64,000 nucleotides of DNA from Lytechinus variegatus (lineage: Eukaryota > Echinodermata > Echinoidea > Temnopleuroida > Toxopneustidae). A program made the translations under genes and the position numbers. Positions 10,425 through 54,493 of the stretch are shown piece after piece (the first letter of the stretch is position 1; every line of letters begins with the position of its first letter). Under the pieces are notes generated by a model. It was not told the DNA's origin, did not search any database, and worked only from the letters and a program-made list of their open reading frames with translations. The stretch is taken from the NCBI RefSeq assembly GCF_018143015.1, contig NC_054751.1, positions 23,698,425-23,762,424 on the forward strand. Direction: 5' to 3'.

Positions 10425-10455
<31 letters not shown>

Positions 10456-18720: not shown

Positions 18721-18747
18721 TTTTTTAGTGTGAACATTGCTACGATC

Positions 18748-21267: not shown

Positions 21268-23880
21268 TGAAAATGGCAGAGGTAAAAATGGTAGAGGTAA
21301 TATTGGCAGAGGTAAAAATGGCAGATGTAATAATGGCGGAGGTAAATATGGCAGAGGTAAAAATGACAGCGGTATAATAATGGCAGGGGTAAAAATGGCA
21401 GAGGTAATAATGGCAGAGGTAAAAATGGCAGGGGTATATGGCAGAGGTAAAAATGGCAGAGGTAAAATGGCAGGGGTTATGAGGTAAAAATGACAGCTCT
21501 ATAGGTATAACATGGCCAGTCTTTAAACCCCCGTGCAATAAATTGTCAAAAGCCCACGCATGTACATAGATTAAATAAGAAGTGCATGTCACGGTTAGGT
21601 ATTTTATCATATCATTATGTCTTCATCGGCCTAACAATGCTATTTACGAATTCGTTGGAGGTGTACTGTGATGGCTTTTTAAACGGAAATCAAACAATAG
21701 ATATTTTTTTCATTCAATTTATCAGGAGCAAAATGAAACTGCACTATTCTCATTCGTAATTTTATAACATTCCTTTTTGCCTGGCTTGGGTTTTTGTCTC
21801 ACCTGCGAAGCAGAGTGAGACTATATAGGCGCCGCTTTTCCGACGGCAGCGGCGGCGTCAACATCAAATCTTAACCTGAGGTTAAGTTTTTGAAATGACG
21901 TCATAACTTAGAAAGTATATGGACCTAGTTAATAAAACTTGGCCATAAGATTAATCAAGTATTACTGAATATCCTGCATGAGTTTCACGTCACATGACCA
22001 AGGTCATAGGTCATTTAGGGTCAATGAGCTTTGGCCAAATTGGGGATATCTGTTGAATTCCCATCATAACTTTGAAAGTTTATGGAAATGAAATGACGTC
22101 ATAACTTAGAAAGTATATGGACCTAGTTAATAAAACTTGGCCATAAGGTTGATCAAGTATTACTGAAAATTCTGCATGAGTTTCACGTCACATGACTAAG
22201 GTCAAAGGTCATTTAGGGTCAATGAACTTAGACCATGTTGGAGGAATCAACATCGAAATCTTAACCTGAGGTTAAGTTTTTGAAATGTCATCATAACTTA
22301 GAAAATATATGAACCTAGTTCATGAAACTTGGACATAAGGTTAATCAAGTATCACTGAACATCCTGCATGAGTTTCACGTCACATGACCAAGGTCATAGG
22401 TCATTTAGAGTCAATGAACTTTGGCCAAATTGGGGATATCTGTTGAATTCCCATCATAACTTTGAAAGTTTATGGATCTGATTCATGAAACTTGGACATA
22501 ATAGTAATCAAGCATCACTGAACATTTTGTGCAAGTTTCAGGTCTAATGATTAAGGTCAAAGGTCATTTAGGGTCAATGAACTTTGGCCGAATCGGGGGT
22601 GTCTGTTGAATTACAATCATAACTTTGAAAGTTTATTGGTCTAGTTCATTAAACTTGGACATTAGAGTAATCAAGTATCACTGAACATCCTGTGCGCGTT
22701 TCAGGTCACATGACCAAGGTGAAAGGTCAATGAACTTTCTCCGAATTGGATGTATCTGTTGAATTACCATCATAACTTTGAAAGTTTATGGATCTGATTC
22801 ATGAAACTTGTACATAAGAGTAATCAAGTATCACTGAACATCCTGTGCTAGTTTCAGGTCACATGATCAAGGTCAAAGGTCATGTAAGGTCAGTGAACTT
22901 TGGCCATGTGGGTTTTTTTTTGTTGAATAACCATCATATCTCTGTAAGTTTATTGGTCTAGTTCATAAAAAGTGGACATAAGAGTAACCATGTATCACTG
23001 AACATCTTGTGCGAGTTAGAGTAGTATTCAAAGTCAGCACTGCTGCTATATTGAACCGCGTGAGCAGGTGAGACGGCCAGAGGCATTCAGGCATTCCACT
23101 TGTTTTTCTAAAGCTTTGCCAGGTTTACCGATGCAAATAGGAGGAAGAGTAGACATAAGAGAGGTGGAGAGACAGATAGGGTTTGGGCGGGGGAAAAAAC
23201 ATAGAGAATATAATATATAGGGGGAAGCTTAGACGTTAAAATTGTCACGAATGATTGTCGTCAAATATCTTTGTCCTTATTCGTAATGTCGTCTGTATTA
23301 TTATTTTGAATATTTGAATGACAATAAGCATGCTCGGCATCAGGTTCGGCCCTGAATATGTAACTGATTGTGAAAATCAATAATCTTGTTTTGACTGGTA
23401 AACAAGTTTGGGGTCGATTAAGGGGCCGTCTGGTTCAGATTCTTTGCATAAAAGAGGACTCTGAACCTTTACCATCACTGCATCCAATATGATATTGAAT
23501 ATAACGCCTTGATGATCATAACCCTTGGAAGCGGAAGTGCTGTTGGGTATTTTGTAGACCATAAGCAGCACCCTCTTGGTAATTAGGTTGGTATGCTAAA
23601 ATGTAGAGATTTGATACAAATTAATGTTTATTTTTTGAACAGAAGAAAAAAAATTGTTTCATATGTAATTGTTGTAATTCTTTTTCTGACCTAAATGAAC
23701 TTCATTTAGGTGGATTAAATCTTCTCTTTTTTTGTATTTCCCCCCTTAACCAAATCCTCTTTCATTTTGGAGTGAAAATTTATTTCTCGGCTTTATACAA
23801 ACCAGCACCCCTTATCTCTTTCATTTTTGCCTCTGCCATCTTTACCTTTGTCATTTTCAACTCCGCCATTTTTTTACACT
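21268..23880. mobile_element. TU-like foldback element 2, split by another repeat
   Basis: Same organisation and middle segment as 19336-20705, with the 15-bp array at 21268-21498 and inverted units near 23820-23880. The middle is interrupted by the element at 21796-23101. A third copy begins at 23985 and is truncated at 24418. Confidence 0.55.
21796..23101. mobile_element. Interspersed element with internal tandem repeats carrying AGGTCAAAGGTCA
   Basis: It is inserted in the middle segment of the foldback between copies of GTTTTT (21790-21795 and 23102-23107); the foldback at 19336-20705 supplies the empty site. It starts with a hairpin (GTCTCAC...GTGAGAC) and ends near GCAGGTGAGACGGCC. The interior is six units of about 155-195 bp. 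Each contains a direct repeat of AGGTCA with one-base spacing: 22001, 22199, 22391, 22554, 22717 and 22870. No coding potential. The second part recurs after the gap at 33287-34100. Confidence 0.6.
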
Positions 23881-23984
23881 GTTAGAAAATTTATACTTAA
23901 AAATAAAAACTGCAGTAGAATCTGGAGAACACCTGTAATCTTATACTGCACTGTGCAATCTTACATGCATTTGTGTAAAATTAC

Positions 23985-24418
23985 AGAATGGCAGAGGTAA
24001 AAATGGCAGGGGTATGGCATAAATGGAGAGGTAATAATGGCAGAGGTAAAGTGGCATGGGTAAAATGACAGCCCTAGGTATAACACAGCCAGGCTTTTAA
24101 CCCCCGTGCAATAAATTGTCAAAAAGCCCCCGCATGTAAAAGATTGAATAAGAAGTGCATGTCATGGTTAGGCATTGTATCGTATCATTATGTCTTCATC
24201 GGCCTAACAATGCTATTTACGAATTCGTTGGAGGTGTACTGTGGGTGCTTTTTAAACGGAAATCAAACAACAAATATTTTTTTCATTCAATTTATCAGGA
24301 GCAAAATGAAACTGCACTATTCTCATTCGTCATTTTATAACATTCCTTTTTGTCTGGCTGTTTTTTTAAATCTAAAGCTTTGCCAGGTTTACCGATACAA
24401 AAAGGAGGAAGAGTAGAC
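23985..24418. mobile_element. TU-like foldback element 3, truncated
   Basis: A short array of GGCAGAGGTAAAAAT units (23990-24075) and the first part of the same middle segment, cut off where a hAT-like terminus begins at 24419. Confidence 0.5.
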
Positions 24419-25640
24419 CAGGGGCGGATCCAGCTTTCGCCAATAAGGGGGGGGGGGCGATTTTTTTTTACCCATATTTTCCTCGATCGGCCGCTCAACG
24501 TTGATTTCTATTTGTTTCTTTGAATGGGTATTCCTAATGGTCACTTGTTAGCTTTATTATCACAAAACATAAATGAAGTAGTATAAGCCCTAATTGAATA
24601 GTACGAGCGCGAAGCGCGAGCTATTTAATTAAATGGAAATTTCATGTAATTTTTCATGAAAATTGAACATTCTGAGCAATGATTGTGATCATGAACAAGA
24701 TGTGTATGTAACTAAATAATGACTGCGAGCGCGAATCGCAAGCAGATTTGTTTTAATATACGTTCTGGCCTGATGGGAAAACAGACCTTAAGGACTGTTT
24801 GCAGTTACCCATGAAAACGATGCATATTTCAACAATCAAATAATGCAAGCGCAAAGCGAGAGCTGAATATTTTTGACATTTTGACCTAAGAATTTGACAT
24901 TCTAAGCACTTCATTGTCATCATAAACAGGATATGTATATAACTAAACATCTCATGCGAGCGCGAAGCGCGAGTGGAAAAATATGATTTAGACCTAAAAA
25001 ATGGGACAGACTATTCATGTTTCGTAAATCACGAAAATGATGACTAATTGGGCCTATTCATACATTAATAATGCAAGCGCGCAAAGTGCGAAAAGAACAT
25101 TTTTGATATTCTGATATGAAACTGGATAATTCAAGCACGTTTGAATGAAAGAACAAACTGCGTATCTATTGTGTACGCCTGTTTTTGAGATTTAGACCTA
25201 GAATCTGTGTTATAAATACATTTATTATGAAAATCAATAATGCGCGAGCACGGAGCTGAAAACAATTGATGTCAATTGAGCCTTTTAAAGCAATATTTCA
25301 AGCATCGTAGGAAAGTTGCGAAATGGATATGGATGGTACTTCACAAATGATGCGAGCGCGAAGCGCGAGCCGATTTTTTTTTCAAATTTATTATTTGGAC
25401 CCAATTGCAAGGACATTTTGTCATCATTAGAAAATGACTATTTTCCTATTCCTCTTCCTAAGCGGGAGATGAAACTTGTCGAAATCAATATTCCATTCTG
25501 AAAAAGGGACATTTTCATTATTAGGAATTCATGAAACTGTTACCTTATTTATCAATTTGATATTAATGAGAGCTCGAAATCTGTTGATATTAAGGCCTGA
25601 AAACCGGGCATTTTAAGCATTTTTTAAACATTGTCTTACG
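24419..25640. mobile_element. hAT-like left end followed by an array with CpG-rich palindromes
   Basis: The terminus CAGGGGCGGATCCAGC and a G run lead into about seven repeats with roughly 115-bp spacing. Each carries a variant of GAGCGCGAAGCGCGAGC: 24605, 24725, 24844, 24956, 25072, 25241 and 25351. The same repeats, in reverse, fill the hAT-like element at 9758-10598, so this is probably a truncated relative. No right end is identified. Confidence 0.5.
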
Positions 25641-26183
25641 GCTTGCATGTGCGCATATGGTAATCCTCCTATGTATAGCTATAATCGGCCGTTGATGGAG
25701 TGCAGGAGACCCATGTGCAAGAGAATGTCTTGTTTGGCGCGCAGTTGCGGTGGCGTGGTTTGCCTACATGTGAACCAACCGAATGCGGTGCCACAGCGAG
25801 TAGGCCTGTGTGGATCAGGCCGGCCGTTATGAGGCCGAAAATTAAACATGGGTGTAATACATGTACATCCTTCGTACTTTTATTTCTGTTTTTTCAGCGT
25901 TTACAAGGACATTTTTTTGTTCCCAAAAAGTAGGGGGGTAAACGGGCCTATAAACGGGTGAAATTTCCGGTTTTTAAAGGGGATTCTAACCAAAATGAAA
26001 AAAATGTTATCAAAGGAAAAAAGAAAAATCAGACAAGTTGTTAGGTGCAAAGTTTGAACAATATCAGATAAAGAATAAAAAAGTTATGAATTTTTTAAAA
26101 TTTTGTAATCACCCATGGAGACTTCAATTGGCCGCATATGTATTGTCATTGTGATGTAAGGCAAGGACTAACTCTTTCATGTA
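25641..26183. other. Intron segment with a GC-richer island, no gene called
   Basis: 25640-25850 is GC-richer than its surroundings and contains open frames on both strands, none with a recognisable motif, start context or splice signals. It may be a fragment of an exon or of an unknown element. The rest is AT-rich. Confidence 0.4.
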
Positions 26184-26191
26184 CTCCAATT

Positions 26192-26470
26192 CAGGCGCGT
26201 ACGCAGGATTTTTGAAGGGGGGGGGGGGGGGGTTTCGAGCTGATTTTTTATTAATCTCCCCCCAGTCTCTAAAAAGTGATAAGCGGGGGGGGGGGGAATC
26301 CGCCCTCTTTTTGTAATTACAATTTCTTGCGTCATACATTATTATGTAGGGGTACCGTGCATCTACCAGACCGACCTCTGGGGAGACAAGCCAAGCCAAA
26401 AAAAAAAAAAAAAGGAAACGAAAGGGGGGGGGTGGTTGAACCCCTAACCCCCCCCCTGCGTACGCGCCTG
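26192..26470. mobile_element. hAT-like MITE with perfect 8-bp target duplication
   Basis: The ends are perfect inverted repeats (CAGGCGCGTACGCAGG on the left, its reverse complement on the right). They are flanked by CTCCAATT at 26184-26191 and 26471-26478. The 279-bp interior is mainly G runs and an A run with no coding capacity. The 2nd-block copy is 37181-37460. Confidence 0.8.
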
Positions 26471-26852
26471 CTCCAATTCATAAAATGGAAAAATGTTGTT
26501 GTTTTTTTTCAAAGGTTTTACTTCAAATTTTGTTTTTCTTTCATGAGGACATAAGAAAATATACTACCCTGGTTATATTTATATCTCTGCCCACGGGGAC
26601 GGGTATTTCAATTCAATTCATTTCTTTATTTCATTCCCTTTCAAAACATAATACAAAGTAATATAAAGCGATACAAATCAAGTACAATTTTATAGGGCAT
26701 TCCTACTTCATAAAACAGTATAATATAGAGCATAAATGGAAATGAGGGATCCACTAAAAAGCAAAGTTTGTAAAGTGTGGATCCCACTTGGAAATGAAGA
26801 AATTATAGTTGACTTATTCTTAGATGCGTACATGGTATATATAGCTACTTAA

Positions 26853-27465
26853 AGGTCAAGTCCACCTCAGAAAAATGTAGATTTGACTCAATGGAGAAAA
26901 ATCAGACAAGCACAATGCTGAAAATTTCATCAAAATCGGATGGAAAATAAGAAAGTTATGACATTTCAAAGTTTCGCTTATTTTCAACAAAATAGTTATA
27001 TGAACGAGCCAGTTACATTCAAATGAGAGAGTCGATGATGTCACTCACTCACTATTTCTTTTGTTTTTTATTGTTTGAATTATACAATATTTCAATTTTT
27101 ACGAATTTGACGATTAGGACCTCCTTGCCTGAAGCACAAAATGTTAACAAAATGGAATTCCACGTGTTCAGGGAGGAATGAAACTTCATTTCACATGACA
27201 ATGACGAGAAAATCAAAATATTTCATATTTCATATAATAAAATACAAAAGAAGTAGTGAGTGAGTGATGTCATCAACTCTCTCATTTGGATGTAACTGGC
27301 TCGTTCATATAACTATTTTGTTGAAAATAAGCGAAACTTTAAAATGCCATAACCTTCTTATTTTACATCCGATTTTGATGAAATTTTCAGTGTTATGCTT
27401 GTTGAATTTTTCTCTTTTTATTCTCAATTTTTGATTCAAAGTTTTTGTTGGGGTGGACTTGTCCT
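26853..27465. mobile_element. TTAA-flanked foldback MITE
   Basis: Left end AGGTCAAGTCCACC after TTAA (26849-26852), right end GGTGGACTTGTCCT followed by TTAG, which is TTAA in the second-block copy. Most of the element is two inverted halves, so it can fold on itself over about 200 bp. A TTAA duplication suggests Kolobok or piggyBac mobilisation. Confidence 0.7.
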
Positions 27466-27761
27466 TTAGAGAAAACCGCAAACCCCTGATAATTACATGG
27501 CCAAGAGAAAGTTGTCCTTGCCCCTTGTCATAATTTACTATCCTAGTTGCCAATTTGAAATCTACATAGTCTTAGGGATCTCAATTTTAAAGAAGCCATA
27601 ACTTTTTTATTGCTTGTCCGATTTCTTTCAAACCTTCACCATTCTGTTTGATTTATTTTTCTCCTTTCCAACACAACATTTATGACCAAGGCTGGATTCC
27701 CCTATAAACAAGAAAATAAAAATACATTTACATGTAAATTTGTTCTTTTATTTCATGTCAG

Positions 27762-27881
27762 GTCCGTGTTCTCTATGTCCAGAAGGAGCTCCCGGTCCCC
27801 GTGGACCACCTGGAGACATTGGCCTGCCGGGAAGAGACGGTCGTGATGGGAGGGACGCTTCGTGTAATGGCCAACTATCAG
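27762..27881 (+). CDS. Gene 2 collagen exon, first-block copy
   Basis: A 120-bp exon with phase 1 borders and acceptor CATGTCAG. It encodes the same protein sequence as the gene 1 exon, with only silent changes. It is followed by the same palindromic MITE as in gene 1. Confidence 0.8.
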
Positions 27882-28003
27882 GTAGAATAATGGTGACGAC
27901 GGGAGTCAAACTGTTGTTAATACCTCAGTCACATTTGCTCTACGGCGGCCGTACGGCGAGTCGAAAACGTTTTCACATTTTTTTTACCAGCTTCATAATT
28001 GTA

Positions 28004-28825
28004 TCTCCCGAACATGCAGAGTTCGGAGGGAACTATGGATTTGGCCTCGTCGCGCCGCAGCAGAGATTTCCTTGTGAGCGCTCTCCCAACTGTATTTCTT
28101 CTCCGATCATCTTCAAATGTGGCATGAAGGTCCATTATGGAAAAGCAAAGTCGCCTAATGATTTTGAGTGGGTGGAGACATGGTTGCCATGGTAACCATA
28201 TATTTGTGGAAAATTTGGTAAAACCTAGCTGTAACTTTTTTTTTCAGTTCGTCATAACAGTTGGCACACAGAAGCAATATCAGAAGGTAAAGCGAAGATG
28301 CCTACCATTTTTTTTTGGGGGGGGGGGGAGGGTCTTTATTGGTAACAATCCAAATGAGTGTTACCAATAACTATGACAATCCAATGTATCATGCCTACTT
28401 CATCCCAAGGTACATGTATCATAATACCATGCTGTTCCCATATAGAAAGTTTGTCATATCAGTTGGCACACAGAAGCAATATCAGAAGGTAAAGCGAAGA
28501 TGCCTATCATTTTTGGTGTGTGTGTGGGGGGTCTTAGGGTTAGGTTTACGAAACATATCCAGATTACTCTATTTTTTTCTAACAGATGCTACTGGAGAAT
28601 ACTTTAGATTCTACAGATTCACGCTGCTGCGTCATATTATTGTCATCAAATTTGGTACCCAGAGGCAAATTATGGGCAGGGTCATTGTTGCCATGATAAT
28701 TGTATTTATAGGCCCTATGTCAAATTTCAGTGTGATGTCTATCGCAATGATAGATTATGCGGTGGATTCGCCGTAGGTTCGGGGCGTACATGTGCTCGGC
28801 CGCGCGACGCGCCGAGCATTTCTAG
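28004..28825. mobile_element. Helitron-like element (first-block copy)
   Basis: It starts with TC after an A and ends with CTAG before a T. The end is preceded three bases upstream by a hairpin with an 8-bp stem TGCTCGGC/GCCGAGCA (28793-28800 and 28811-28818). That is the layout of a Helitron 3' end. It splits the small palindromic MITE that is uninterrupted in gene 1 (7482-7631). Inside are a twice-repeated segment around GTTGGCACACAGAAGC (28258 and 28460), a perfect palindrome GGTTGCCATGGTAACC (28182-28197) and a Cys-rich frame near the 3' end. No Rep/helicase is present. Relatives: 38992-39796 and 59844-60652. Confidence 0.6.
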
Positions 28826-28850
28826 TTATAGATGGTTTGAATAAAAAAAT
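28620..28850 (+). other. Cys-rich open frame in the Helitron-like element, doubtful
   Basis: One frame reads a Cys-rich peptide containing YYCHQIW, GHCCHDNC and RLCGGFAVGSG. The equivalents are 39576-39806 and 60432-60671. The spacing C-x3-C-x9-C-x8-C-x8-C-x-C in the 60432 copy resembles macin/defensin-type CS-alpha-beta peptides. However, the other two frames are also open, the end overlaps the Helitron hairpin, and most differences between the copies change amino acids. It could be a captured exon or coincidence. Confidence 0.2.
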
Positions 28851-29465
28851 CGACCCGCCACACGGCCGCCATATAGCAAATGTGACTGTGATGATGATGA
28901 TGATGATAGGAATGATGATAATAAGAAAAAAAATAATTGATTATAATAACGATTATTGATAATAATGTTACCTGATGACAAACTTGATACACTCGAAATA
29001 CAATCGTTGTGGGCAATATCCTAACTCCATTTTTGCTTAGTATTGAAATTAACTTCTATTCACCATAATCCAAACAATCAGGGATGGCGTCATTCACGGG
29101 GGAGGAAGGGGACAATATAAATGCCCCTGGGGGGGGGGGGGCAGTCAAATGTATTGCTGAACACATGCATGACCAAATTATTTCCGAACACCCCCTAAAG
29201 GCGTTTTCCTCTGTGTGCAAAATTACCCCCACACAAAATAATTCGCTGGATTTAATTCCATATTTTGGCCCCTTAAAAATTTCTCGCCAGATCATATGAC
29301 CCCGGGGAAAAAGCTTGGGAAAATGGAATACTAAACATGTTTGGCTACAGTCTTAAAAAAAGGATTTGGAAAAAATATACCCTAAATACGTTTGACCCTG
29401 CGATTGACCATTGACCAGTCTTTCAAAACTACCCCTTAAAAAAATTGTGTTTTTGATATCCTTAA

Positions 29466-31991
29466 AGGACAAGTCCACCCCAACAAAAACTTGATTTGAA
29501 TAAAAAGAGAAACATTCAACAAGCATAACACTGAAAATTTCATCAAAATCAGATGTGAAATAAGAAAGTTATGACATTTCAAAGTTTCGCTTATTTTTAA
29601 CAAAATAGTTATATGAACGAGCCAGTTACATCCAAATGAGAGAGTCGATGACATCACTCACTCACTATTTCTTTGTATTTTATTATATGAAATATTTGTA
29701 TTTTCTCGTCATTGTCACGTGGAATGAAGTTTCATTCCTCCCTGAACACGTGGAATTATTTTAACATTTTGTGCTTCAGGCAAGGAGGTCCTAATCGTCA
29801 AATTCGTAAAAATTGAAATATTGTATAATTCAAACAATAAAAAAACAAAAGAAATAGTGAGTCAGTGACATCATCGACTCTCTCATTTGGATGTAACTGG
29901 CTCGTTCATATAACTATTTTGTTAAAAATTAGTGAAACTTTGAAATGTCATAACTTTCTTATTTTCCATCCGATTTTGATGAAATTTTCAGCATTGTGCT
30001 TGTCTGATTTTTCTCTATTGGGCACACATGAGTATTACAGACCCCCATTCACTCACGTGTTATATCATAGCTCATCAAAAAATCATTAAAAATCAATCCC
30101 TCGATAGATTTTGCTTTAATTCACTAACATTAATCACAATTAACAGTACATTAAGACTTGATATGTTAATCAGGTACTTGACCAGCTCAATCAAAAGTTA
30201 AATGGCCTGAAATAAGACTAACCATAATTTCGGCCAGTTCATTGCCACAAAAACCAGAACTGCATTGTGGGTAATAATAATTAAAATGAAATACAAAAAT
30301 GCAGTCTAGCCTCCCCAAACGCCTTGATTATGAAAGAGTATGAACATAGCATTATGTCTATCGTTTTTCTTTTGATATACAAACATTTGATCTATTTTTA
30401 ATGAATTATTTTAATTAATAAAGTCATGTGATCTTTACTTACGCCTGTCCGGCATGCTTTGCGCGCGGTTGAATTACTCTCATGTGCCCTATACTGTGGG
30501 TCAAATGACGAAAGGTTGAACATTTTGGTCTCAAAAGAAATAGTGGGTTCTCCTGAAGAGATTGATACCTTGCATTCAATACCTAATCTGACTAAACGTG
30601 TTAAAAGAAAAGAAAACGTCTCATTAGACACCCTCATTTTAATGGAAAAATGCAATGTTCCATTCATATATTTTGTGCGCTTCCTATGGTATTGCAGCTA
30701 CAAGTTCTACTTGCTTGATGTCCATCAATGGGCTAAATATGTATTATGTGGATTTACAACTTCTTGTTTACATGTTTAATTTCGTTCGAGGTGATTTATT
30801 ACCTATGTATTCGCATAAGAATAAACAAAGTAAATAAAAGAAAATTGATAACAAAGAGTGTAAGCATTCCTTTTGCTCATTGGCGCCTCTCTTCCCTATT
30901 ATAACCGTTAATTTGGAGGAAGAAGGGGGGGGGGGTGTTATAGGCATCAACCCCGTCCTGCTTACAAGCCAGGAGGATGGGGGAATGTACCCCGACTCAG
31001 CACCCCCCCCCCCTCCTGTAGTTTTCAACGAAGTGAATAGTATTCAAGTGCGCAATCTATGATGTTTTACATCTGACTGAGACAAGTTTATGTATTTTAA
31101 TGTTTTGTTCATCTTTCTTTCTTTGTGTGCTCTAGATATTGAAAATAGGAATCCTGATGATAATTAGAAGTTCTTTATCATTTTGAAGTTCCTTCTAGTA
31201 CTTGTTTTATTTCACACTCTCAAACCGACCAGATCTCCTATATTGACAGTAGAAACTCGCATTTCTGCATGATAAATGATAAGCATTGAATATACATTTG
31301 AAAGCGTCATTTCAGCATCGTAGTCGATAAATGCACTAAATGCCGAGTTACATACTTATCAAATGTTGTTAAACATAACCTATCACTTTGCATGAAACTG
31401 TTTGAAGCATTCTCACCACCGATGTCTAGCAGACGACGCCCAGCCATAGCAACGACAGTGTAGAAGTGTAGTCGCGATATAGGGCACACATGAGTATTAC
31501 AGACCCCCATTCACTCACGTGTTATATCATAGCTCATCAAAAAATCATTAAAAATCAATCCCTCGATAGATTTTGCTTTAATTCACTGACATTAATCACA
31601 ATTAACAGTACATTAAGACTTGATATGTTAATCAGGTACTTGACCAGCTCAATCAAAAGTTAAATGGCCTGAAATAAGACTAACCATAATTTCGGCCAGT
31701 TCATTGCCACAAAAACCAGAACTGCATTGTGGGTAATAATAATTAAAATGAAATACAAAAATGCAGTCTAGCCTCCCCAACGCCTTGATTATGAAAGAGT
31801 ATGAACATAGCATTATGTCTATCGTTTTTCTTTTGATATACAAACATTTGATCTATTTTTAATGAATTATTTTAATTAATAAAGTCATGTGATCTTTACT
31901 TACGCCTGTCCGGCATGCTTTGCGCGCGGTTGAATTACTCTCATGTGCCCTATTGATGCAAATCAACATTTTTCTGAGGTGGACTTGACCT
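29466..31991. mobile_element. TTAA-flanked foldback MITE split by a composite TIR element
   Basis: Ends AGGACAAGTCCACC and GGTGGACTTGACCT with TTAA at 29462-29465 and 31992-31995. The equivalent in unit 3 (61297-61887) is uninterrupted at 591 bp. Here it is expanded by the insertion at 30021-31949. Confidence 0.7.
30021..31949. mobile_element. Composite of two 470-bp TIR elements around 1 kb
   Basis: Two direct copies of a 470-bp element with inverted ends GGGCACA.../...TGTGCCC (30020-30489 and 31482-31950) enclose about 990 bp of unrelated DNA. The whole is flanked by CTATTG at 30015-30020 and 31950-31955. Unit 3 has the empty site TTTCTCTATTGATGC near 61842-61856. The outer duplication shows that the structure arrived as one unit. 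The enclosed segment contains an open frame (30459-30779 region) without known motifs, and G and C runs. Confidence 0.7.
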
Positions 31992-32093
31992 TTAACGAGT
32001 GCACGTGCGGCCCGCTTCCGAAACTGAAAAAACACCCCAATTTAAACCCGGTTTTTTTTGGTCACGCATGTTAAGAGCAATATATTTGACTGG

Positions 32094-32540
32094 CCCCGGG
32101 TATAAATGCGACATTCCTTATGTGTGAAAGGGTGCCCTGTCCCCAAACTGTTGCCCATGGTTACAGTCATAACCGAGAGAGCGAGGAAAGTCATTCTGCC
32201 CCCGGGTATAAATGCGACATTGTTATTTTCTCAATTGATGAAGGGTAATTTCGAATTACACGACACAAGCCTTTATACTTTCTTCATTTTCTGAACTTTT
32301 TCATCAAAGACTTTAACATTCCTTATGTGTGAAAGGGTGCCCCTGTCCCCAAACTGTTGCCCATGGTTACAGTCATAACCGAGAGAGCGAGGAAAGTCAC
32401 TCTGCCCCCGGCCGCGCCGGGTATAGATGCGACCGATCCGACATTGTTATTTTCTCAATCGATGAAGGGTAATTTCGAATACACGACACAAGCCATTATA
32501 CTTTCTTCATTTTCTGAACTTTTTCATCATAGACTTTAAC
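32094..32540. repeat. Tandem repeat with GAGAGAGCGAGGAAAGTCA
   Basis: Repeat units combine CCCGGGTATAAATGCGACAT, CCCCTGTCCCCAAACTG and ACCGAGAGAGCGAGG. Two and a half units are present here and in the second block (43070-43510), one extra in unit 3 (61990-62540), and one in unit 1 (8035-8130). Confidence 0.65.
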
Positions 32541-32679
32541 ATTCCTTATGTGGGTCACTCTGCTTCTTCGAAGATGTCTTATACATCGTCATCTTAATCA
32601 TAAGGTTTTTCTTTGTCCAGTATTTGGAATCTTGTCCAGTATTCTTGTCCAGTTTTCCTTTGTCCAGTATTTGGAATCT

Positions 32680-32786
32680 TGTATTTTTTCGGCCTCACCA
32701 ATTTTCCCAAGGGTAGAAAGGTTCCCCAGAGCTATCTACCCTTTGGAAAAATTGGTGATGCCGAAAAAATGTCTCTGCCGGGAATC
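32680..32786. mobile_element. SINE inverted repeat cut by the assembly gap
   Basis: The segment TTTTTCGGCCTCACCAAT and its inverse flank a 14-bp centre, and the minus-strand tRNA-like head begins just before the Ns. The intact version lies at 43670-43820. The assembly appears to have broken in this palindromic SINE. Confidence 0.6.
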
Positions 32787-33286
32787 NNNNNNNNNNNNNN
32801 NNNNNNNNNNNNNNNNNNNNNNNNNNNNNNNNNNNNNNNNNNNNNNNNNNNNNNNNNNNNNNNNNNNNNNNNNNNNNNNNNNNNNNNNNNNNNNNNNNNN
32901 NNNNNNNNNNNNNNNNNNNNNNNNNNNNNNNNNNNNNNNNNNNNNNNNNNNNNNNNNNNNNNNNNNNNNNNNNNNNNNNNNNNNNNNNNNNNNNNNNNNN
33001 NNNNNNNNNNNNNNNNNNNNNNNNNNNNNNNNNNNNNNNNNNNNNNNNNNNNNNNNNNNNNNNNNNNNNNNNNNNNNNNNNNNNNNNNNNNNNNNNNNNN
33101 NNNNNNNNNNNNNNNNNNNNNNNNNNNNNNNNNNNNNNNNNNNNNNNNNNNNNNNNNNNNNNNNNNNNNNNNNNNNNNNNNNNNNNNNNNNNNNNNNNNN
33201 NNNNNNNNNNNNNNNNNNNNNNNNNNNNNNNNNNNNNNNNNNNNNNNNNNNNNNNNNNNNNNNNNNNNNNNNNNNNNNNNNNNNNN
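32787..33286. other. Assembly gap of exactly 500 N
   Basis: A run of 500 N, a conventional placeholder length rather than a measured distance. It separates the two copies of the 10.5-kb duplicated block. Confidence 0.99.
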
Positions 33287-36200
33287 TTTTTGAAATGTCA
33301 TCATAACTTAGAAAATATATGAACCTAGTTCATGAAACTTGGACATAAGGTTAATCAAGTATCACTGAACATCCTGCATGAGTTTCACGTCACATGACCA
33401 AGGTCATAGGTCATTTAGAGTCAATGAACTTTGGCCAAATTTGGGGAATCTGTTGAATTCCATCATAACTTTGAAGTTTATGGATCTGATTCATGAAACT
33501 TCGACATAATAGTAATCAAGCATCACTGAATCATTTTGTGCAAGTTTGAGGTCTAATGATTAAGGTCAAAGGTCATTTAGGGTCAATGAACTTTGGCCGA
33601 ATCGGGGGTGTCTGTTGAATTACCATCATAACTTTGAAAGTTTATTGGTCTAGTTCATTAAACTTGGACATTAGAGTAATCAAGTATCACTGAACATCCT
33701 GTGCGCGTTTCAGGTCACATGACCAAGGTGAAAGGTCAATGAACTTTCTCCGAATTGGATGTATCTGTTGAATTTCCCATCATAACTTTGAAAGTTTATG
33801 GATCTGATTCATGAAACTTGTACATAAGAGTAATCAAGTATCACTGAAATCCTGTGCTAGTTTCAGGTCACATGATCAAGGTCAAAGGTCATGTAAGGTC
33901 AGTGAACTTTGGCCATGTTGGGTTTTTTGTTGAATAACCATCATATCTCTGTAAGTTTATTGGTCTAGTTCATAAAAAGTGGACATAAGAGTAACCATGT
34001 ATCACTGAACATCTTGTGCGAGTTAGAGTAGTATTCAAAGTCAGCACTGCTGCTATATTGAACCGCGTGAGCAGGTGAGACGGCCAGAGGCATTCCACTT
34101 GTTTTTCTAAAGCTTTGCCAGGTTTACCGATGCAAATAGGAGGAAGAGTAGACATAAGAGAGGTGGAAAGACAGAGAGGGTTTGGGGCGGGGCAAAAACA
34201 TAGAGAATATAATATATAGGGGGAAGCTTAGACGTTAAAATTGTCACGAATGATTGTCGTCAAATATTTTTGTCCTTATTCGTAATGTCGTCTGTATTAT
34301 TATTTTGAATATTTGAATGACAATAAGCATGCTCGGCATCAGGCTCGGCCCTGAATATGTAACTGATTGTGAAAATCAATAATCTTGTTTTGACTGGTAA
34401 ACAAGTTTGGGGTCGATTAAGCGGCAGTCTGGTTCAGATTCTTTGCATAAAAGAGGACTCTGAACCTTTACCATCACTGCATCCAATATGATATTGAATA
34501 TAAACGCCTTGATGATCATAACCCTTGGAAGCGGAAGTGCTGTTGGGTATTTTGTAGACCATAAGCAGCACCCTCTTGGTAATTAGGTTGGTATGCTAAA
34601 ATGTAGAGATTTGATACAAATTAATGTTTATTTTTTGAACAGAAGAAAAAAAATTGTTTCATATGTAATTGTTGTAATTCTTTTTCTGACCTAAATGAAC
34701 TTCATTTAGGTGGATTAAATCTCTTTTTTTTGTATTCCCCCTTAACCAAATCCTCTTTCATTTTGGAGTGAAAATTTATTTCTCGGCTTTATACAAACCA
34801 GCACCCCTTATCTCTTTCATTTTTGCCTCTGCCATCTTTACCTTTGTCATTTTCAACTCCGCCATTTTTTTACACTGTTAGAAAATTTATACTTAAAAAT
34901 AAAAACTGCAGTAGAATCTGGAGAACACCTGTAATCTTATACTGCACTGTGTAATCTTACATGCATTTGTGTAAAATACAGAATGGCAGAGGTAAAAATG
35001 GCAGGGGTATGGCATAAAGGGAGAGGTAATAATGGCAGAGGTAAAGTGGCATGGGTAAAATGACAGCCTAAGGTATAACATGGCCAGGCTTTTAACCCCC
35101 GTGCAATAAATTGTCAAAAAGCCCCCGCATGTACAAAGATTGAATAAGAAGTGCATGTCATGGTTAGGCATTGTATCGTATCATTATGTCTTCATCGGCC
35201 TAACAATGCTATTTACGAATTCGTTGGAGGTGTACTGTGGGTGCTTTTTAAACGGAAATCAAACAACAAATATTTTTTTCATTCAATTTATCAGGAGCAA
35301 AATGAAACTGCACTATTCTCATTCGTCATTTTATAACATTCCTTTTTGTCTGGCTGGTTTTTTAATCTAAAGCTTTGCCAGGTTTACCGATACAAAAAGG
35401 AAGAAGAGTAGACCAGGGGCGGATCCAGCTTTCGCCAATAAGGGGGGGGGGGGCGATTTTTTTTACCCATATTTTCCTCGATCGGCCGCTCAACGTTGAT
35501 TTCTATTTGTTTCTTTGAATGGGTATTCCTAATGGTCACTTGTTAGCTTTATTATCACAAAAATAAATGAAGTAGTGTAAGCCCTAATTGAATAGTACGA
35601 GCGCGAAGTGCGAGCTATTTATTTAAATGGAAATTTCATGTAATTTTTCATGAAAATTGAACATTCTGAGCAATGATTGTGATCATGAACAAGATGTGTA
35701 TGTAACTAAATAATGACTGCGAGCGCGAATCGCAAGCAGATTTGTTTTAATATACGTTCTGGCCTGATGGGAAAACAGACCTTAAGGACTGTTTGCAGTT
35801 ACCCATGAAAACGATGCATATTTCAACAATCAATAATGCAAGCGCAAAGCGCGAGCTGAATATTTTTGACATTTTGACCTAAGAATTTGACATTCTAAGC
35901 ACTTCATTGTCATCATAAACAGGATATGTATATAACTAAACATTTCATGCGAGCGCGAAGCGCGCGAGTGGAAAAATATGATTTAGACCTAAAAAATGGG
36001 ACAGACTATTCATGTTTCGTAAATCACGAAAATGACTAATTGGGCCTATTCATACATTAATAATGCAAGCGCGCAAAGTGCGAAAAGAACATTTTTGATA
36101 TTCTGATATGAAACTGGATAATTCAAGCACGTTTGAATGAAAGAACAAACTGCGTATCTATTGTGTACGCCTGTTTTTGAGATTTAGACCTAGAATCTGT

Positions 36201-37180
36201 GTTATAAATACATTTATTATGAAAATCAATAATGCGCGAGCACGGAGCTGAAAACAATTGATGTCAATTGAGCCTTTTAAAGCAATATTTCAAGCATCGT
36301 AGGAAAGTTGCGAAATGGATATGGATGGTACTTTACAAATGATGCGAGCGCGAAGCGCGAGCCGATTTTTTTTTCAAATTTATTATTTGGACCCAATTGC
36401 AAGGACATTTTGTCATATGAAAATGACTATTTTCCTATTCCTCTTCCTAAGCGGGAGATGAAACTTGTCGAAATCAATATTCCATTCTGAAAAAGGGACA
36501 TTTTCATTATTAGGAATTCATGAAACTGTTACCTTACTTATCAATTTGATATTAATGAGAGCTCGAAATCTGTTGATATTAAGGCCTGAAAACGGGCATT
36601 TTAAGCATTTTTAAAATATTGTCTTACGGCTTGCATGTGCGCATATGGTAATCCTCCTATGTTAGAGCTATAATCGGCCGTTGATGGAGTGCAGGAGACC
36701 CATGTGCAAGAGAATGTCTTGTTTGGCGCGCAGTTGCGGTGGCGTGGTTTGCCTACATGTGAACCAACCGAATGCGGTGCCACAGCGAGTAGGCCTGTGT
36801 GGATCAGGCCGGCCGTTATGAGGCCGAAAATTAAACATGGGTGTAATACATGTACATCCTTCGTACTTTTATTTCTGTTTTTTCAGCGTTTACAAGGACA
36901 TTTTTTTGTTCCCAAAAAGTAGGGGGGTAAACGGGCCTATAAACGGGTGAAATTTCCGGTTTTTAAAGGGGATTCTAACCAAAATGAAAAAAATGTTATC
37001 AAAGGAAAAAAGAAAAATCAGACAAGTTGTTAGGTGCAAAGTTTGAACAATATCAGATAAAGAATAAAAAAGTTATGAATTTTTTAAAATTTTGTAATCA
37101 CCCATGGAGACTTCAATTGGCCGCATATGTATTGTCATTGTGATGTAAGGCAAGGACTAACTCTTTCATGTACTCCAATT

Positions 37181-37460
37181 CAGGCGCGTACGCAGGATTT
37201 TTGAAAGGGGGGGGGGGGGGGTTTCGAGCTGATTTTTTATTAATCTCCCCCCAGTCTCTAAAAAGTGATAAGCGGGGGGGGGGGGGAATCCGCCCTCTTT
37301 TTGTAATTACAATTTCTTGCGTCATACATTATTATGTAGGGGTACCGTGCATCTACCAGACCGACCTCTGGGGAGACAAGCCAAGCCAAAAAAAAAAAAA
37401 AAAGGAAACGAAAGGGGGGGGGGTGGTTGAACCCCTAACCCCCCCCTGCGTACGCGCCTG
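37181..37460. mobile_element. hAT-like MITE (second-block copy)
   Basis: Same perfect inverted ends and CTCCAATT duplication (37173-37180 and 37461-37468) as 26192-26470. It differs only in the lengths of its homopolymer runs. Confidence 0.75.
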
Positions 37461-37858
37461 CTCCAATTCATAAAATGGAAAAATGTTGTTGTTTTTTTTC
37501 AAAGGTTTTACTTCAAATTTTGTTTTTCTTTCATGAGGACATAAGACAATATACTACCCTGGTTATATTTATATCTCTGCCCACGGGGAACGGGTATTTC
37601 AATTCAATTCAATTAATTTCTTTATTTCATTTCCATTCAAAACATAATACAAAGTAATATAAAGCGATACAAATCAAGTACAATTTTATAGGGCATTCCT
37701 ACTTCATAAAACAGTATAATATAGAGCATAAATGGAAATGAGGGATCCACTAAAAAGCAAAGTTTGTAAAGTGTGGATCCCACTTGGAAATGAAGAAATT
37801 ATAGTTGACTTATTCTTAGATGCGTACATGGTATATATAGCTACTTAAAGGTCAAGTC

Positions 37859-38451
37859 CACCTCAGAAAAATGTAGATTTGACTCAATGGAGAAAAATCA
37901 GACAAGCACAATGCTGAAAATTTCATCAAAATCGGATGGAAAATAAGAAAGTTATGACATTTCAAAGTTTCGCTTATTTTCAACAAAATAGTTATATGAA
38001 CGAGCCAGTTACATTCAAATGAGAGAGTCGATGATGTCACTCACTCACTATTTCTTTTGTTTTTTATTGTTTGAATTATACAATATTTCAATTTTTACGA
38101 ATTTGACGATTAGGACCTCCTTGCCTGAAGCACAAAATGTTAACAAAATGGAATTCCACGTGTTCAGGGAGGAATGAAACTTCATTTCACATGACAATGA
38201 CGAGAAAATCAAAATATTTCATATTTCATATAATAAAATACAAAAGAAGTAGTGAGTGAGTGATGTCATCAACTCTCTCATTTGGATGTAACTGGCTCGT
38301 TCATTTAACTATTTTGTTGAAAATAAGCGAAACTTTAAAATGCCATAACTTTCTTATTTTACATCCGATTTTGATGAAATTTTCAGTGTTATGCTTGTTG
38401 AATTTTTCTCTTTTTATTCAAATCAAGTTTTTGTTGGGGTGGACTTGTCCT
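37859..38451. mobile_element. TTAA-flanked foldback MITE (second-block copy)
   Basis: TTAA on both sides (37855-37858 and 38452-38455), ends AGGTCAAGTCCACC and GGTGGACTTGTCCT. It confirms the TTAA duplication that is worn on one side in the first-block copy. Confidence 0.7.
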
Positions 38452-38749
38452 TTAAGAGAAAACCGCAAACCCCTGATAATTACATGGCCAAGAGAAAGTT
38501 GTCCTTGCCCCTTGTCATGATTTACTATCCTAGTTGCCAATTTGAAATCTACATAGTCTTAGGGATCTCAATTTTAAAGAAGCCATAACTTTTTTTATTG
38601 CTTGTCCGATTTCTTTCAAACCTTCACCATTCTGTTTGATTTATTTTTCTCCTTTCCAACACAACATTTATGACCAAGGCTGGATTCCCCTATAAACAAG
38701 AAAATAAAAATACATTTACATGTAAATTTGTTTTTTTATTTCATGTCAG

Positions 38750-38869
38750 GTCCGTGTTCTCTATGTCCAGAAGGAGCTCCCGGTCCCCGTGGACCACCTG
38801 GAGACATTGGCCTGCCGGGAAGAGACGGTCGTGATGGGAGGGACGCTTCGTGTAATGGCCAACTATCAG
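38750..38869 (+). CDS. Gene 2 collagen exon, second-block copy
   Basis: Identical in protein sequence to the exon at 27762-27881, with the same acceptor, donor and phase. It is the copy physically linked to the linker and terminal exons. If the two blocks are haplotypes of one locus, only one of the two exons exists per chromosome. Confidence 0.8.
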
Positions 38870-38991
38870 GTAGAATAATGGTGACGACGGGAGTCAAACT
38901 GTCGTTAATACTTCAGTCACATTTGCTCTACGGCGGCCGTACGGCGAGTCGAAAACGTTTTAACATTTTTTTTACCAGCTTCATAATTGTA

Positions 38992-39796
38992 TCTCCCGAA
39001 CATGCAGAGTTCGGAGGGAACTATGGATTTGGCCTCGTCGCGCCGCAGCAGAGATTTCCTTGTGAGCGCTCTACCAACTGTATTTCTTCTCCGATCATCT
39101 TCAAATGTGGCATGAAGGTCCATTATGGAAAACCAAAGTCGCCTAATGATTTTTGAGTGGGTGGAGACATGGTTGCCATGGTAACCATATATTTGTGGAA
39201 AATTTGGTAAAACCTAGCTGTAACTTTTTTTTCAGTTCGTCATAACAGTTGGCACACAGAAGCAATATCAGAAGGTAAAGCGAAGATGCCTACCATTTTT
39301 TTTTTTGGGGGGGAGGGTCTTTATTGCCATTGTAACAACCCAAATGAGTGTTAACAATAACTATGACAATCCAATGTATCATGCCTACTTCATCCCAAGG
39401 TACATGTATCATAATACCATGCTGTTCCCATATAGAAAGTTTGTCATATCAGTTGGCACACAGAAGCAATATCAGAAGGTAAAGCGAAGATGCCTGTCAT
39501 TTTTGGTGTGTGTGTGGGGGGTCTTAGGGTTAGGTTTACGAAACATATCCAGATTACTCTATTTTTTTCTAACAGATGCTACTACAGATTCACGCTGCTG
39601 CGTCATATTATTGTCATCAAATTTGGTACCCAGAGGCAAAATGTGGGCAGGGGCATTGTTGCCATGATAATTGTATTTATGGGCCCTATGTCAAATTTCT
39701 GTGTGATGTCTATCGCAATGATAGATTATGCGGTGGATTCGCCGTAGGTTCGGGGCGTACATGTGCTCGGCCGCGCGACGCGCCGAGCATTTCTAC
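38992..39796. mobile_element. Helitron-like element (second-block copy)
   Basis: Same TC start and the same 3' hairpin (39764-39771 with 39782-39789) as 28004-28825, but ending CTAC. It lacks a 22-bp segment that the first-block copy has near 28594-28615, as does the unit 3 copy. Confidence 0.55.
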
Positions 39797-40995
39797 TTAT
39801 AGATGATTTTAATAAAAAAATCGACTCGCCGCACGGCCGCCATATAGCAAATGTGACTGTGATGATAATGATAGGAATGATGATAATAAGAAAAAAAACA
39901 CCACTAATTGATTATAATAACGATTATTGATAATAATGTTACCTGATGACAAACTTGATACACTCGAAATACAATCGTTGTGGGCAATATCCTAACTCCA
40001 TTTTTGCTTAGTATTGAAATTAACTTCTATTCACCATAATCCAAACAATCAGGGATGGCGTCATTCACGGGGGAGGAAGGGGACAATATAAATGCCCCTC
40101 GGGGGGGGGGGGGGCAGTCAAATGTATTGCTGAACACATGCATGACCAAATTATTTCCGAACACCCCCTAAAGGCGTTTTCCTCTGTGTGCAAAATTACC
40201 CCCCACACAAAATAATTCGCTGGATTTAATTCCATATTTTGGCCCCTTAAAAATTTCTCGCCAGATCATATGACCCGGGGAAAAAGCTTGGGAAAATGGA
40301 ATACCCTAAACATGTTTGGCTACAGTCTTAAAAAAAGGATTTGGAAAAAATATACCCTAAATACGTTTGACCCTGCGATTGACCATTGACCAGTCTTTCA
40401 AAACTACCCTTAAAAAAATTGTGTTTTTGATATCCTTAAAGGACAAGTCCACCCCAACAAAAACTTGATTTGAATAAAAAGAGAAACATTCAACAAGCAT
40501 AACACTGAAAATTTCATCAAAATCAGATGTGAAATAAGAAAGTTATGACATTTCAAAGTTTCGCTTATTTTTAACAAAATAGTTATATGAACGAGCCAGT
40601 TACATCCAAATGAGAGAGTCGATGACATCACTCACTCACTATTTCTTTTGTATTTTATTATATGAAATATTTGTATTTTCTCGTCATTGTCACGTGGAAT
40701 GAAGTTTCATTCCTCCCTGAACACGTGGAATTATTTTAACATTTTGTGCTTCAGGCAAGGAGGTCCTAATCGTCAAATTCGTAAAAATTGAAATATTGTA
40801 TAATTCAAACAATAAAAAAACAAAAGAAATAGTGAGTCAGTGACATCATCGACTCTCTCATTTGGATGTAACTGGCTCGTTCATATAACTATTTTGTTAA
40901 AAATTAGTGAAACTTTGAAATGTCATAACTTTCTTATTTTCCATCCGATTTTGATGAAATTTTCAGCATTGTGCTTGTCTGATTTTTCTCTATTG

Positions 40996-42925
40996 GGCAC
41001 ACATGAGTATTACAGACCCCCATTCACTCACGTGTTATATCATAGCTCATCAAAAAATCATTAAAAATCAATCCCTCGATAGATTTTGCTTTAATTCACT
41101 GACATTAGTCACAATTAACAGTACATTAAGACTTGATATGTTAATCAGGTACTTGACCAGCTCAATCAAAAGTTAAATGGCCTGAAATAAGACTAACCAT
41201 AATTTCGGCCAGTTCATTGCCACAAAAACCAGAACTGCATTGTGGGTAATAATAATTAAAATGAAATACAAAATGCAGTCTAGCCTCCCCAAACGCCTTG
41301 ATTATGAAAGAGTATGAACATAGCATTATGTCTATCGTTTTTCTTTTGATATACAAACATTTGATCTATTTTTAATGAATTATTTTAATTAATAAAGTCA
41401 TGTGATCTTTACTTACGCCTGTCCGGCATGCTTTGCGCGCGGTTGAATTACTCTCATGTGCCCTATACTGTGGGTCAAATGACGAAAGGTTGAACATTTT
41501 GGTCTCAAAAGAAATAGTGGGTTCTCCTGAAGAGATTGATACCTTGCATTCAATACCTAATCTGACTAAACGTGTTAAAAGAAAAGAAAACGTCTCATTA
41601 GACACCCCTCATTTTAATGGAAAAATGCAATGTTCCATTCATATATTTTGTGCGCTTCCTATGGTATTGCAGCTACAAGTTCTACTTGCTTGATGTCCAT
41701 CAATGGGCTAAATATGTATTATGTGGATTTACAACTTCTTGTTTACATGTTTAATTTCGTTCGAGGTGATTTATTACCTATGTATTCGCATAAGAATAAA
41801 CAAAGTAAATAAAAGAAAATTGATAACAAAGAGTGTAAGCATTCCTTTTGCTCATTGGCGCCTCTCTTCCCTATTATAACCGTTAATTTGGAGGAAGAAG
41901 GGGGGGGGGGGTGTTATAGGCATCAACCCCGTCCTGCTTACAAGCCAGGAGGATGGGGGAATGTACCCCGACTCAGCACCCCCCCCCCTCCTGTAGTTTT
42001 CAACGAAGTGAATAGTATTCAAGTGCGCAATCTATGATGTTTTACATCTGACTGAGACAAGTTTATGTATTTTAATGTTTTGTTCATCTTTCTTTCTTTG
42101 TGTGCTCTAGATATTGAAAATAGGAATCCTGATGATAATTAGAAGTTCTTTATCATTTTGAAGTTCCTTCTAGTACTTGTTTTATTTCACACTCTCAAAC
42201 CGACCAGATCTCCTATATTGACAGTAGAAACTCGCATTTCTGCATGATAAATGATAAGCATTGAATATACATTTGAAAGCGTCATTTCAGCATCGTAGTC
42301 GATAAATGCACTAAATGCCGAGTTACATACTTATCAAATGTTGTTAAACATAACCTATCACTTTGCATGAAACTGTTTGAAGCATTCTCACCACCGATGT
42401 CTAGCAGACGACGCCCAGCCATAGCAACGACAGTGTAGAAGTGTAGTCGCGATATAGGGCACACATGAGTATTACAGACCCCCATTCACTCACGTGTTAT
42501 ATCATAGCTCATCAAAAAATCATTAAAAATCAATCCCTCGATAGATTTTGCTTTAATTCACTGACATTAATCACAATTAACAGTACATTAAGACTTGATA
42601 TGTTAATCAGGTACTTGACCAGCTCAATCAAAAGTTAAATGGCCTGAAATAAGACTAACCATAATTTCGGCCAGTTCATTGCCACAAAAACCAGAACTGC
42701 ATTGTGGGTAATAATAATTAAAATGAAATACAAAAATGCAGTCTAGCCTCCCCAAACGCCTTGATTATGAAAGAGTATGAACATAGCATTATGTCTATCG
42801 TTTTTCTTTTGATATACAAACATTTGATCTATTTTTAATGAATTATTTTAATTAATAAAGTCATGTGATCTTTACTTACGCCTGTCCGGCATGCTTTGCG
42901 CGCGGTTGAATTACTCTCATGTGCC
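40996..42925. mobile_element. Composite TIR element (second-block copy)
   Basis: Two direct 470-bp elements (40995-41463 and 42457-42926) around the same 1-kb segment as in 30021-31949, with the same outer duplication CTATTG. It sits inside the TTAA-flanked MITE 40440-42967. Confidence 0.65.
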
Positions 42926-43669
42926 CTATTGATGCAAATCAACATTTTTCTGAGGTGGACTTGACCTTTAACGAGTGCACGTGCGGCCCGCTTCCGAAAC
43001 TGAAAAAACACCCCAATTTAAACCGGTTTTTTTTGGTCACGCATGTTAAGAGCAATATATTTGACTGGCCCCCGGGTATAAATGCGACATTCCTTATGTG
43101 TGAAAGGGTGCCCTGTCCCCAAACTGTTGCCCATGGTTACAGTCATAACCGAGAGAGCGAGGAAAGTCATTCTGCCCCCGGGTATAAATGCGACATTGTT
43201 ATTTTCTCAATTGATGAAGGGTAATTTCGAATTACACGACACAAGCCTTTATACTTTCTTCATTTTCTGAACTTTTTCATCAAAGACTTTAACATTCCTT
43301 ATGTGTGAAAGGGTGCCCCTGTCCCCAAACTGTTGCCCATGGTTACAGTCATAACCGAGAGAGCGAGGAAAGTCACTCTGCCCCGGCCGCGCCGGGTATA
43401 GATGCGACCGATCCGACATTGTTATTTTCTCAATCGATGAAGGGTAATTTCGAATTACACGACACAAGCCATTATACTTTCTTCATTTTCTGAACTTTTT
43501 CATCATAGACTTTAACATTCCTTATGTGGGTCACTCTGCTTCTTCGAAGATGTCTTATACATCGTCATCTTAATCATAAGGTTTTTCTTTGTCCAGTATT
43601 TGGAATCTTGTCCAGTATTCTTGTCCAGTTTTCCTTTGTCCAGTATTTGGAATCTTGTATTTTTTCGGC

Positions 43670-43830
43670 CTCACCAATTTTCCCAAGGGTAGAAAGGTTC
43701 CCCAGAGCTATCTACCCTTTGGAAAAATTGGTGATGCCGAAAAAATGTCTCTGCCGGGAATCGAACCCGGGCCCCCAGCTTTGAACGCCGGTGCCTTAAC
43801 CACTAGACCACAGAGATGGGTTAATGGTTA
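43670..43830 (-). mobile_element. tRNA-derived SINE upstream of the gene 2 linker exon
   Basis: Minus-strand tRNA-like head at 43747-43817 with A box TGGTCTAGTGG, B box GGGTTCGATTCCC, and stems that fold as a cloverleaf. The loop of the anticodon arm reads GTTCAAA, which would give UCA. The adjoining body is itself an inverted repeat (43670-43745). It is shared with 62690-62850. I treat it as a SINE because identical heads occur in a multicopy family. Confidence 0.65.
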
Positions 43831-43865
43831 GGGCGGGCCAGATCCGATTGACCGTCAGATAGACA

Positions 43866-43959
43866 GATTTTCGACACTATACCAATTATATTTTCCTTTG
43901 TCATTGTTCAAAACTCATTCACCCGACAAAGGAAAATATAATTGGTATAGTGTCGAAAA

Positions 43960-43961
<2 letters not shown>
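43866..43961. repeat. Perfect 37-bp inverted repeat, 22-bp loop
   Basis: Arms 43866-43902 and 43925-43961 are exact reverse complements and end directly at an (AT)n tract, 90 bp upstream of the linker exon. The unit 3 counterpart (62897-62933 and 62958-62994) is also perfect despite a changed loop. It probably derives from two opposed SINE bodies. Confidence 0.85.

Positions 43962-43962
<1 letters not shown>

Positions 43963-44010
<48 letters not shown>
43963..44010. repeat. (AT)n microsatellite
   Basis: About 45 bp of alternating AT following the hairpin. It is longer in unit 3 (62997-63062). Confidence 0.9.
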
Positions 44011-44019
<9 letters not shown>

Positions 44020-44051
44020 ATTATATCAAAACCTTTGTTCCCCCTCTTCAG

Positions 44052-48390: not shown

Positions 48391-48399
48391 TTTATTCAA

Positions 48400-53520: not shown

Positions 53521-53646
53521 CTACACTCGCTCGCAGCAGGCGTTTATATAGTCTCTCGCATACTTACGAATTTATATCATGCAGCTTGTATACCAGTAAA
53601 TTGAAGTTGATGACCTTGATTTAAGTGTTTTGCTTACTCTACTGTA

Positions 53647-54491: not shown

Positions 54492-54493
54492 TA

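Follow-up and report, generated by a model that had tools for sequence, protein, structure and literature searches.

Does the genome carry the two near-identical blocks of 10.5 kb that face each other across a gap in this window (the whole stretch of 64,000 bases that was analysed, C12:23698425-23762424, in a genome of 869.6 Mb in 33 contigs), or has the assembly written one block twice? The first block, which ends the left contig (22277..32786, plus strand), aligns over its full length as far as the gap with the second, which starts the right contig (33287..43762, plus strand), in one self-BLAST alignment of 10,552 columns with 98.3% identity, 63 mismatches and 62 gap openings, reaching both borders of the gap to the base. 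The gap itself (32787..33286) is a placeholder of exactly 500 N, the sole N run in 264 kb (window plus 100 kb per side; positions that are negative or above 64000 are window coordinates lying outside the window). Chance is no concern with such a match, and the sequence-only reading was right in describing near-identical 10.5-kb blocks that flank exactly 500 Ns. With somewhat better than even confidence, we read the blocks as one stretch of a short-chain collagen gene written twice, i.e., an unmerged contig overlap in which the second block would be redundant. The exact match at both gap borders was rejected as proof of this redundancy, since it would look identical if a gap interrupted a real tandem copy.

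The differences between the blocks were earlier described as only scattered, which does not hold, as they are unevenly spread. Substitutions cluster in the first ~6.9 kb of the block (15, 15, 11, 8, 12, 13, 16, 2, 0, 0 and 0 per successive kb of the first block, MAFFT) and amount to 0.9% overall, whereas small indels persist to the block end.

The blocks sit within a real tandem gene array, with gap-free repeats of 7-9.6 kb that are 94-99% identical (BLAST). In the right contig, segment E1 (43292..52832, plus strand) is repeated gap-free at 62322-71899 (E2, which extends past the window) at 99.2% identity, with 23 substitutions in 9.1 kb (0.25%), and segment R (52828..59840, plus strand) is repeated gap-free at 73594-80619 at 97.7%, its two right-contig copies differing by 1.4% substitutions. 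The left-contig R copy at 572-13968 matches 73629-87023 across the gap at 98.5%, and within the left contig -6286..1210 recurs gap-free at 8004-15556 at 94.2% (BLAST). The next closest relative of the block's middle (~95%; BLAST and alignment) lies at 59464..61851 on the plus strand and served as outgroup P. The identity level was thus rejected as a test for an artefact, since the gap-free array copies (94-99%) bracket the 98.3% of the blocks; in substitutions, the gap-free copies range from 0.25 to 2.4%, and the 0.9% of the blocks falls within. Over the first 0.9 kb of E, there are 3 substitutions between E1 and E2, against 10 between E1 and a third copy of the region, described below, and 11 between E2 and that copy, so that segment E poorly separates copies from alleles. 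This array setting, with its gap-free near-identical repeats, and the third copy ~566 kb off had been overlooked earlier. The flanks also hold long tandem arrays at -43395..-38673 and -26893..-23810, with spacing in multiples of ~52 bases, which resemble each other in opposite orientation, and ~8.3 kb of C12:23628425-23638424, probably a young transposable element, matches C6 at 98% and C15 at 99%, in two pieces.

The array units carry a small collagen gene of three exons (tblastn/blastn), which we take to be 'short-chain collagen C4-like': exon 1 encodes a signal peptide (MTNLLLWMISVTTIATASGLTIDVDGPISG), exon 2 the collagen repeat (SGPCSLCPEGAPGPRGPPGDIGLPGRDGRDGRDASC...) and exon 3 a C-terminal domain of ~163 residues. 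The signal-peptide scan did not detect exon 1, which was revealed by alignment; exon 2 at 27758..27883 scored 22.2 bits against Pfam Collagen, under the cut-off of 27.2; exon 3 had no Pfam match, and the best match in the PDB search reached only E 0.12. At the gap this gene is split. Its exon 1 in the left contig (17224..17314, plus strand; tblastn, blastn) is frameshifted, and the third copy is likewise altered there; the left-contig exon 2 (27758..27883, plus strand, tblastn) has no exon 3 before the gap; the right contig brings an exon 2 (38746..38871, plus strand, tblastn), its first collagen exon, with no exon 1 found upstream, and is alone in holding exon 3 of the split gene (44672..45160, plus strand, tblastn). 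Across the 264 kb, 8 collagen exons were counted, together with 7 exons 3 and 6 exons 1. An exon 3 stands before the next collagen exon in seven of the eight cases (in one of them at a distance of 36.5 kb, at -55784), and the sole exception is the left-contig exon at 27758, 5.0 kb after which the contig stops. For the gene at -92331, no exon 1 was found within the 7.7 kb upstream examined. The five genes with all three exons have an exon 1 to exon 2 spacing of 2.4-3.0 kb, while in the left contig's gene it is 10.5 kb, a value seen elsewhere only in the third copy. The left block is thus without exon 3 and the right block without exon 1, and the missing parts could lie within the gap; overlaying the contigs at the block yields one three-exon gene with the 10.5-kb spacing. 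Redundancy is favoured for this reason, as it needs no missing sequence and one normal gene results.

The third copy lies ~566 kb away on C12 in inverted orientation (from C12:23149869 upward, minus strand) and is bounded by a second stretch of exactly 500 N (23149369-23149868). It matches 15890-32786 of the window at 98.6% and then runs into 43763-45058, containing one block, and its spacing is also 10.5 kb (1358 for exon 1 and 11909 for exon 2, counted along the reversed piece). This passage from the left flank through one block into right-contig sequence fits a merge of the two contigs, but a further block may lie beyond the end of the third copy. As proof of redundancy it was rejected: the third copy stops 1.3 kb beyond the block, and an E would be expected after a genuine left copy too.

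The inverted copy is large. When C12:23149869-23266120 (minus strand) was compared in samples with C12:23537961-23743482, the shared span came to at least 114 kb, and the third copy was collinear with the left contig wherever compared (23200565-23251682 was left out). It agrees at 99% with window 8000-16000, at 97.9-98.5% with 23603627-23605510, at 93.7% with 23602090-23603642 (collinearity was compared across 23598425-23605510) and at 99% with 23550001-23552386; all 21 of the 20-base tags from 23540349-23549950 were found in order (19 exact, 2 with one edit), and a further exact tag lies at 23537961. Across 15890-21889 the third copy and the left contig differ by 5 substitutions and 16 indels. 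They are separated by large insertions, some of which match repeats elsewhere at up to 100%, and also by a roughly 50-kb difference. For the probes at 23480001 and 23514001 no partner was found, the probe at 23536001 fell mostly within repeats, and the far end of the inverted copy lies beyond the stretch sampled. None of 60 samples of 20 bases across 23254101-23282440, on the third-copy side, was N, i.e., no 500-N run was seen there, and on the left-contig side 19 samples and one 10-kb stretch held no N.

Gene content also differs. C12:23185041-23189006 is 97% identical to the gene at 23640124-23643400 until just past exon 3, and beyond exon 3 it is no nearer to that gene than other array genes are; by this comparison the gene there in the inverted copy looks like a hybrid. 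Left of the split gene, the inverted copy has 2 exons 3 and the left contig 3. Two far-side tags of the inverted copy (C12:23278101-23279080) recur inverted and ~1 kb apart, with at most one edit each, at C12:23827956-23829008 in the right contig's flank, which may be a shared repeat.

Comparison of the left-contig block (A), the right-contig block (B) and the third copy (C) divides the block into two parts. In the last 3.6 kb (from ~6.9 kb on) there are 0, 2 and 1 private substitutions in A, B and C, respectively (7 further C columns being one shifted poly-C indel), whereas small indels private to one copy number 8, 6 and 4, and 16 of the 18 are one base long; 3 substitutions against 18 small indels look like consensus noise on what would be one sequence. 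The first 6.9 kb, on the other hand, holds three distinct versions. When columns within 6 of a gap were dropped, the whole block gave 103 private substitutions (A 23, B 45, C 35), with 8 of C's and 2 of B's lying beyond 6.9 kb. They are clustered (32 runs against 67 shuffled). After same-label changes within 30 bases were joined and positions beyond 6700 left out, 31 runs in 57 events remained against 38.4 +/- 3.5 shuffled (P 0.03), which is only mild clustering; among windows of 200 bases, 1 of 34 had all three labels, and among windows of 500 bases, 3 of 14. A patchwork of two haplotypes would be expected to give long runs of one odd sequence, and the mild clustering speaks against it.

Against outgroup P, 28 private sites were well aligned (27595, 28320-28322 and 28896-28933 were dropped as misaligned). 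The derived state joins A and B at 6, B and C at 3 and A and C at 2, while at the other 17 a single copy stands alone, which is B in 12 cases. Because the derived states join all three pairs, A, B and C have recombined, which alleles do readily and array copies can do via gene conversion. At 11 of the 28 sites the private allele recurs in P (A 3/5, B 2/14, C 6/9), so at least these 11 are not errors. Consensus error was rejected as the source of the substitutions in the first 6.9 kb for this reason and because the last 3.6 kb has ~3 substitutions to 18 indels, with the caveat that for B alone just 2/14 recur.

Three versions are at odds with a single diploid locus, which gives two. The excess applies if the third copy is the same locus, whereas three versions are allowed if it belongs to a different one. 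The possible sources of the third version are thus a separate locus for the third copy, an assembly built from more than two haplotypes, or a right block that really is an additional copy. Our confidence in redundancy is shared about half and half between two forms of it, each of which is unlikely when taken singly. In the one, the third copy would be the left contig's other haplotype, misplaced and inverted ~566 kb off, so that all three versions belong to one locus. The collinearity with the left contig over at least 114 kb, the end at a 500-N run and the few differences at 15890-21889 argue for this, and the large insertions and the roughly 50-kb difference are possible between haplotypes; the lack of any 500-N run in the 60 samples over 23254101-23282440 goes against it, as the far end may then not be a contig end. 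With the third copy as the other haplotype, B is expected to be identical to A or to C; it is identical to neither, so that B would be a real copy or more than two haplotypes were assembled. The right block would here have to be a patchwork consensus, which the variants private to B where A equals C do not fit, or come from a further animal in a pooled sample. In the other form, which we rate much the same, the genome would really contain the third copy as an inverted duplication of at least 114 kb. A and B could then simply be the two alleles at the window's locus, and one diploid animal would have three versions without any pooling. That there was no gap near the far end within the stretch sampled agrees with such a duplication, although its near end falls exactly at a 500-N run inside the array, and the left-arm parts 23516501-23523580 and 23530321-23536000, outside the sampling, may hold a gap. 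The sequence-only reading took the blocks to be two alleles laid end to end. The part of this with the better support is the redundancy of the second block, through the gap-edge match, the facing half-genes and the noise-like right end; that the two are alleles of one diploid animal goes further than three versions in the left 6.9 kb permit us to say.

The main competitor to redundancy is a real tandem duplication, a possibility that we take seriously while placing it clearly below even chances. Two long-intron collagen genes would stand in a row with the sequence between them collapsed, and the gap would have swallowed the exon 3 end of the first gene, an E-like segment and the exon-1 block of the second, all near-identical to E1/E2 and R, so that the 500 N would stand for at least ~1.4 kb (to the exon 3 end) and probably for 15 kb or more. 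An array that holds gap-free near-identical duplicates makes this plausible, as do the three distinct block versions and a substitution level within the range of the gap-free copies, and the third copy is compatible with it, as a left block followed by E is expected there too. It requires, however, that an exon 3 and an exon 1 are both missing exactly at the gap, and the wide exon 1 to exon 2 spacing is confined to the third copy and the left contig, with the narrow one in all five of the remaining genes that have both exons; the nearly substitution-free last 3.6 kb counts against it weakly, as E1/E2 are nearly substitution-free too. A more elaborate form, which seems rather improbable to us, is a fast-changing collagen cluster in which the long-intron gene was duplicated in tandem, a region of at least 114 kb was duplicated in inverted orientation and the copies exchange sequence. 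Such exchange would leave substitution-free patches (the last 3.6 kb) beside patches of ~1%, and the hybrid gene would have arisen by unequal crossing over. Any outcome other than redundancy or a real extra copy appears more improbable still.

If the blocks are redundant, how did they come about? One collagen gene of the real array would have been assembled twice where two contigs meet. Contigs entering E (two copies, 99.2%) from the left would be cut soon after its start, the right contig, running on through E, would have retained 10.5 kb of its own version back to a minisatellite, and the 10.5-kb end overlap, too different for merging, would have led scaffolding to join the ends with the 500-N placeholder. 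We infer from the sequence both that the overlap is a single locus and what determined the positions of the contig ends. The minisatellite (198- and 163-base units) lies at 21858..23017 on the plus strand, and the right contig starts inside its own copy of it (33299-34024; both TRF). A tRNA-like element of 72 bases lies at 43746..43817 on the minus strand (Rfam RF00005, 54.7 bits; ARAGORN), and the left contig stops 17 bases into its copy of this element (32770-32786). After it, in the right contig, come a 100-base palindrome read in the sequence (43864..43963, MITE-like being our label) and a (TA)n tract (43964-44019, TRF); the palindrome recurs near 62.9 kb, in E2, and is absent from the third copy. 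Earlier, the first block was said to stop in a palindromic SINE beside an (AT)n tract, where assemblers fail. The left contig does enter the tRNA-like element, but the palindrome lies ~100 bases further, and both it and the tract are visible only in the right contig. From the start of E it is ~0.5 kb to the end of the left contig and ~1.8 kb to that of the third copy; because the left contig never reaches the palindrome, repeat entry explains the contig ends better, and entry into the 9.5-kb repeat E is more likely than the palindrome to have ended the left contig. Consensus is probably poor at contig ends, to judge by 7 private small indels in the first kb of B against none in A and none in C, and by four 1-base indels and 2 substitutions in the last 150 bases of exon 3 in the third copy, where that copy borders its own gap. 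The tRNA-like genes at 43746-43817 and 62777-62848, one per E copy, have a predicted anticodon TCA (ARAGORN), and two tRNA-Arg predictions lie at 8638 and 9053.

The passages of Ko et al. (2022, PMC9516828) on which we draw name, as marks of false duplication, half or very low depth, a gap between copies on the same scaffold, discordant read pairs and single-copy k-mers, and they distinguish heterotype duplications, in which alleles are assembled as paralogues, with half depth and single-copy k-mers, from homotype ones, in which read errors block collapse and depth is very low. A gap between the copies is present here (500 N, with a match to both edges). In terms of those passages, the adjacent near-identical copies on one scaffold, the gap between them and the repeated gene part resemble the heterotype, which has two versions where there are three here if the third copy is the same locus; the last 3.6 kb, differing almost only by small indels, resembles the homotype, while the first 6.9 kb has block-specific, real substitution differences and does not. 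The surroundings are a tandem gene array with recent copies, repeated in gap-free sequence; unlike such copies, the two blocks have no contiguous junction, as 500 N intervenes, and neither contig has a whole gene there.

The two-block feature is ordinary. Counts of collagen genes or of copy number at this place would probably be inflated by one false exon and 11 kb, and perhaps also by an inverted duplication of over 100 kb that is not real; the invented collagen exon and ~11 kb spoken of in the sequence-only reading would, if the blocks are redundant, be 10,476 bases, 500 N and one exon. The locus is also a worked case in which gap-free array copies stand beside probable assembly copies, and because the two are similarly identical, identity alone cannot discriminate between them; useful aids in telling them apart are the ratio of substitutions to indels and whether genes at contig ends have all their exons. 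A genome-wide search that scored only the best candidates placed the C-terminal exon on C12, here and in the inverted copy, with less similar matches on C2, C3, C9 and C14. Two exon-3 relatives on C9, at C9:14945162-14945650 (minus strand) and C9:17214527-17215015 (plus strand), have an identical score and opposite orientation at 2.3 Mb from each other, and are possibly another assembly duplicate or a real one.
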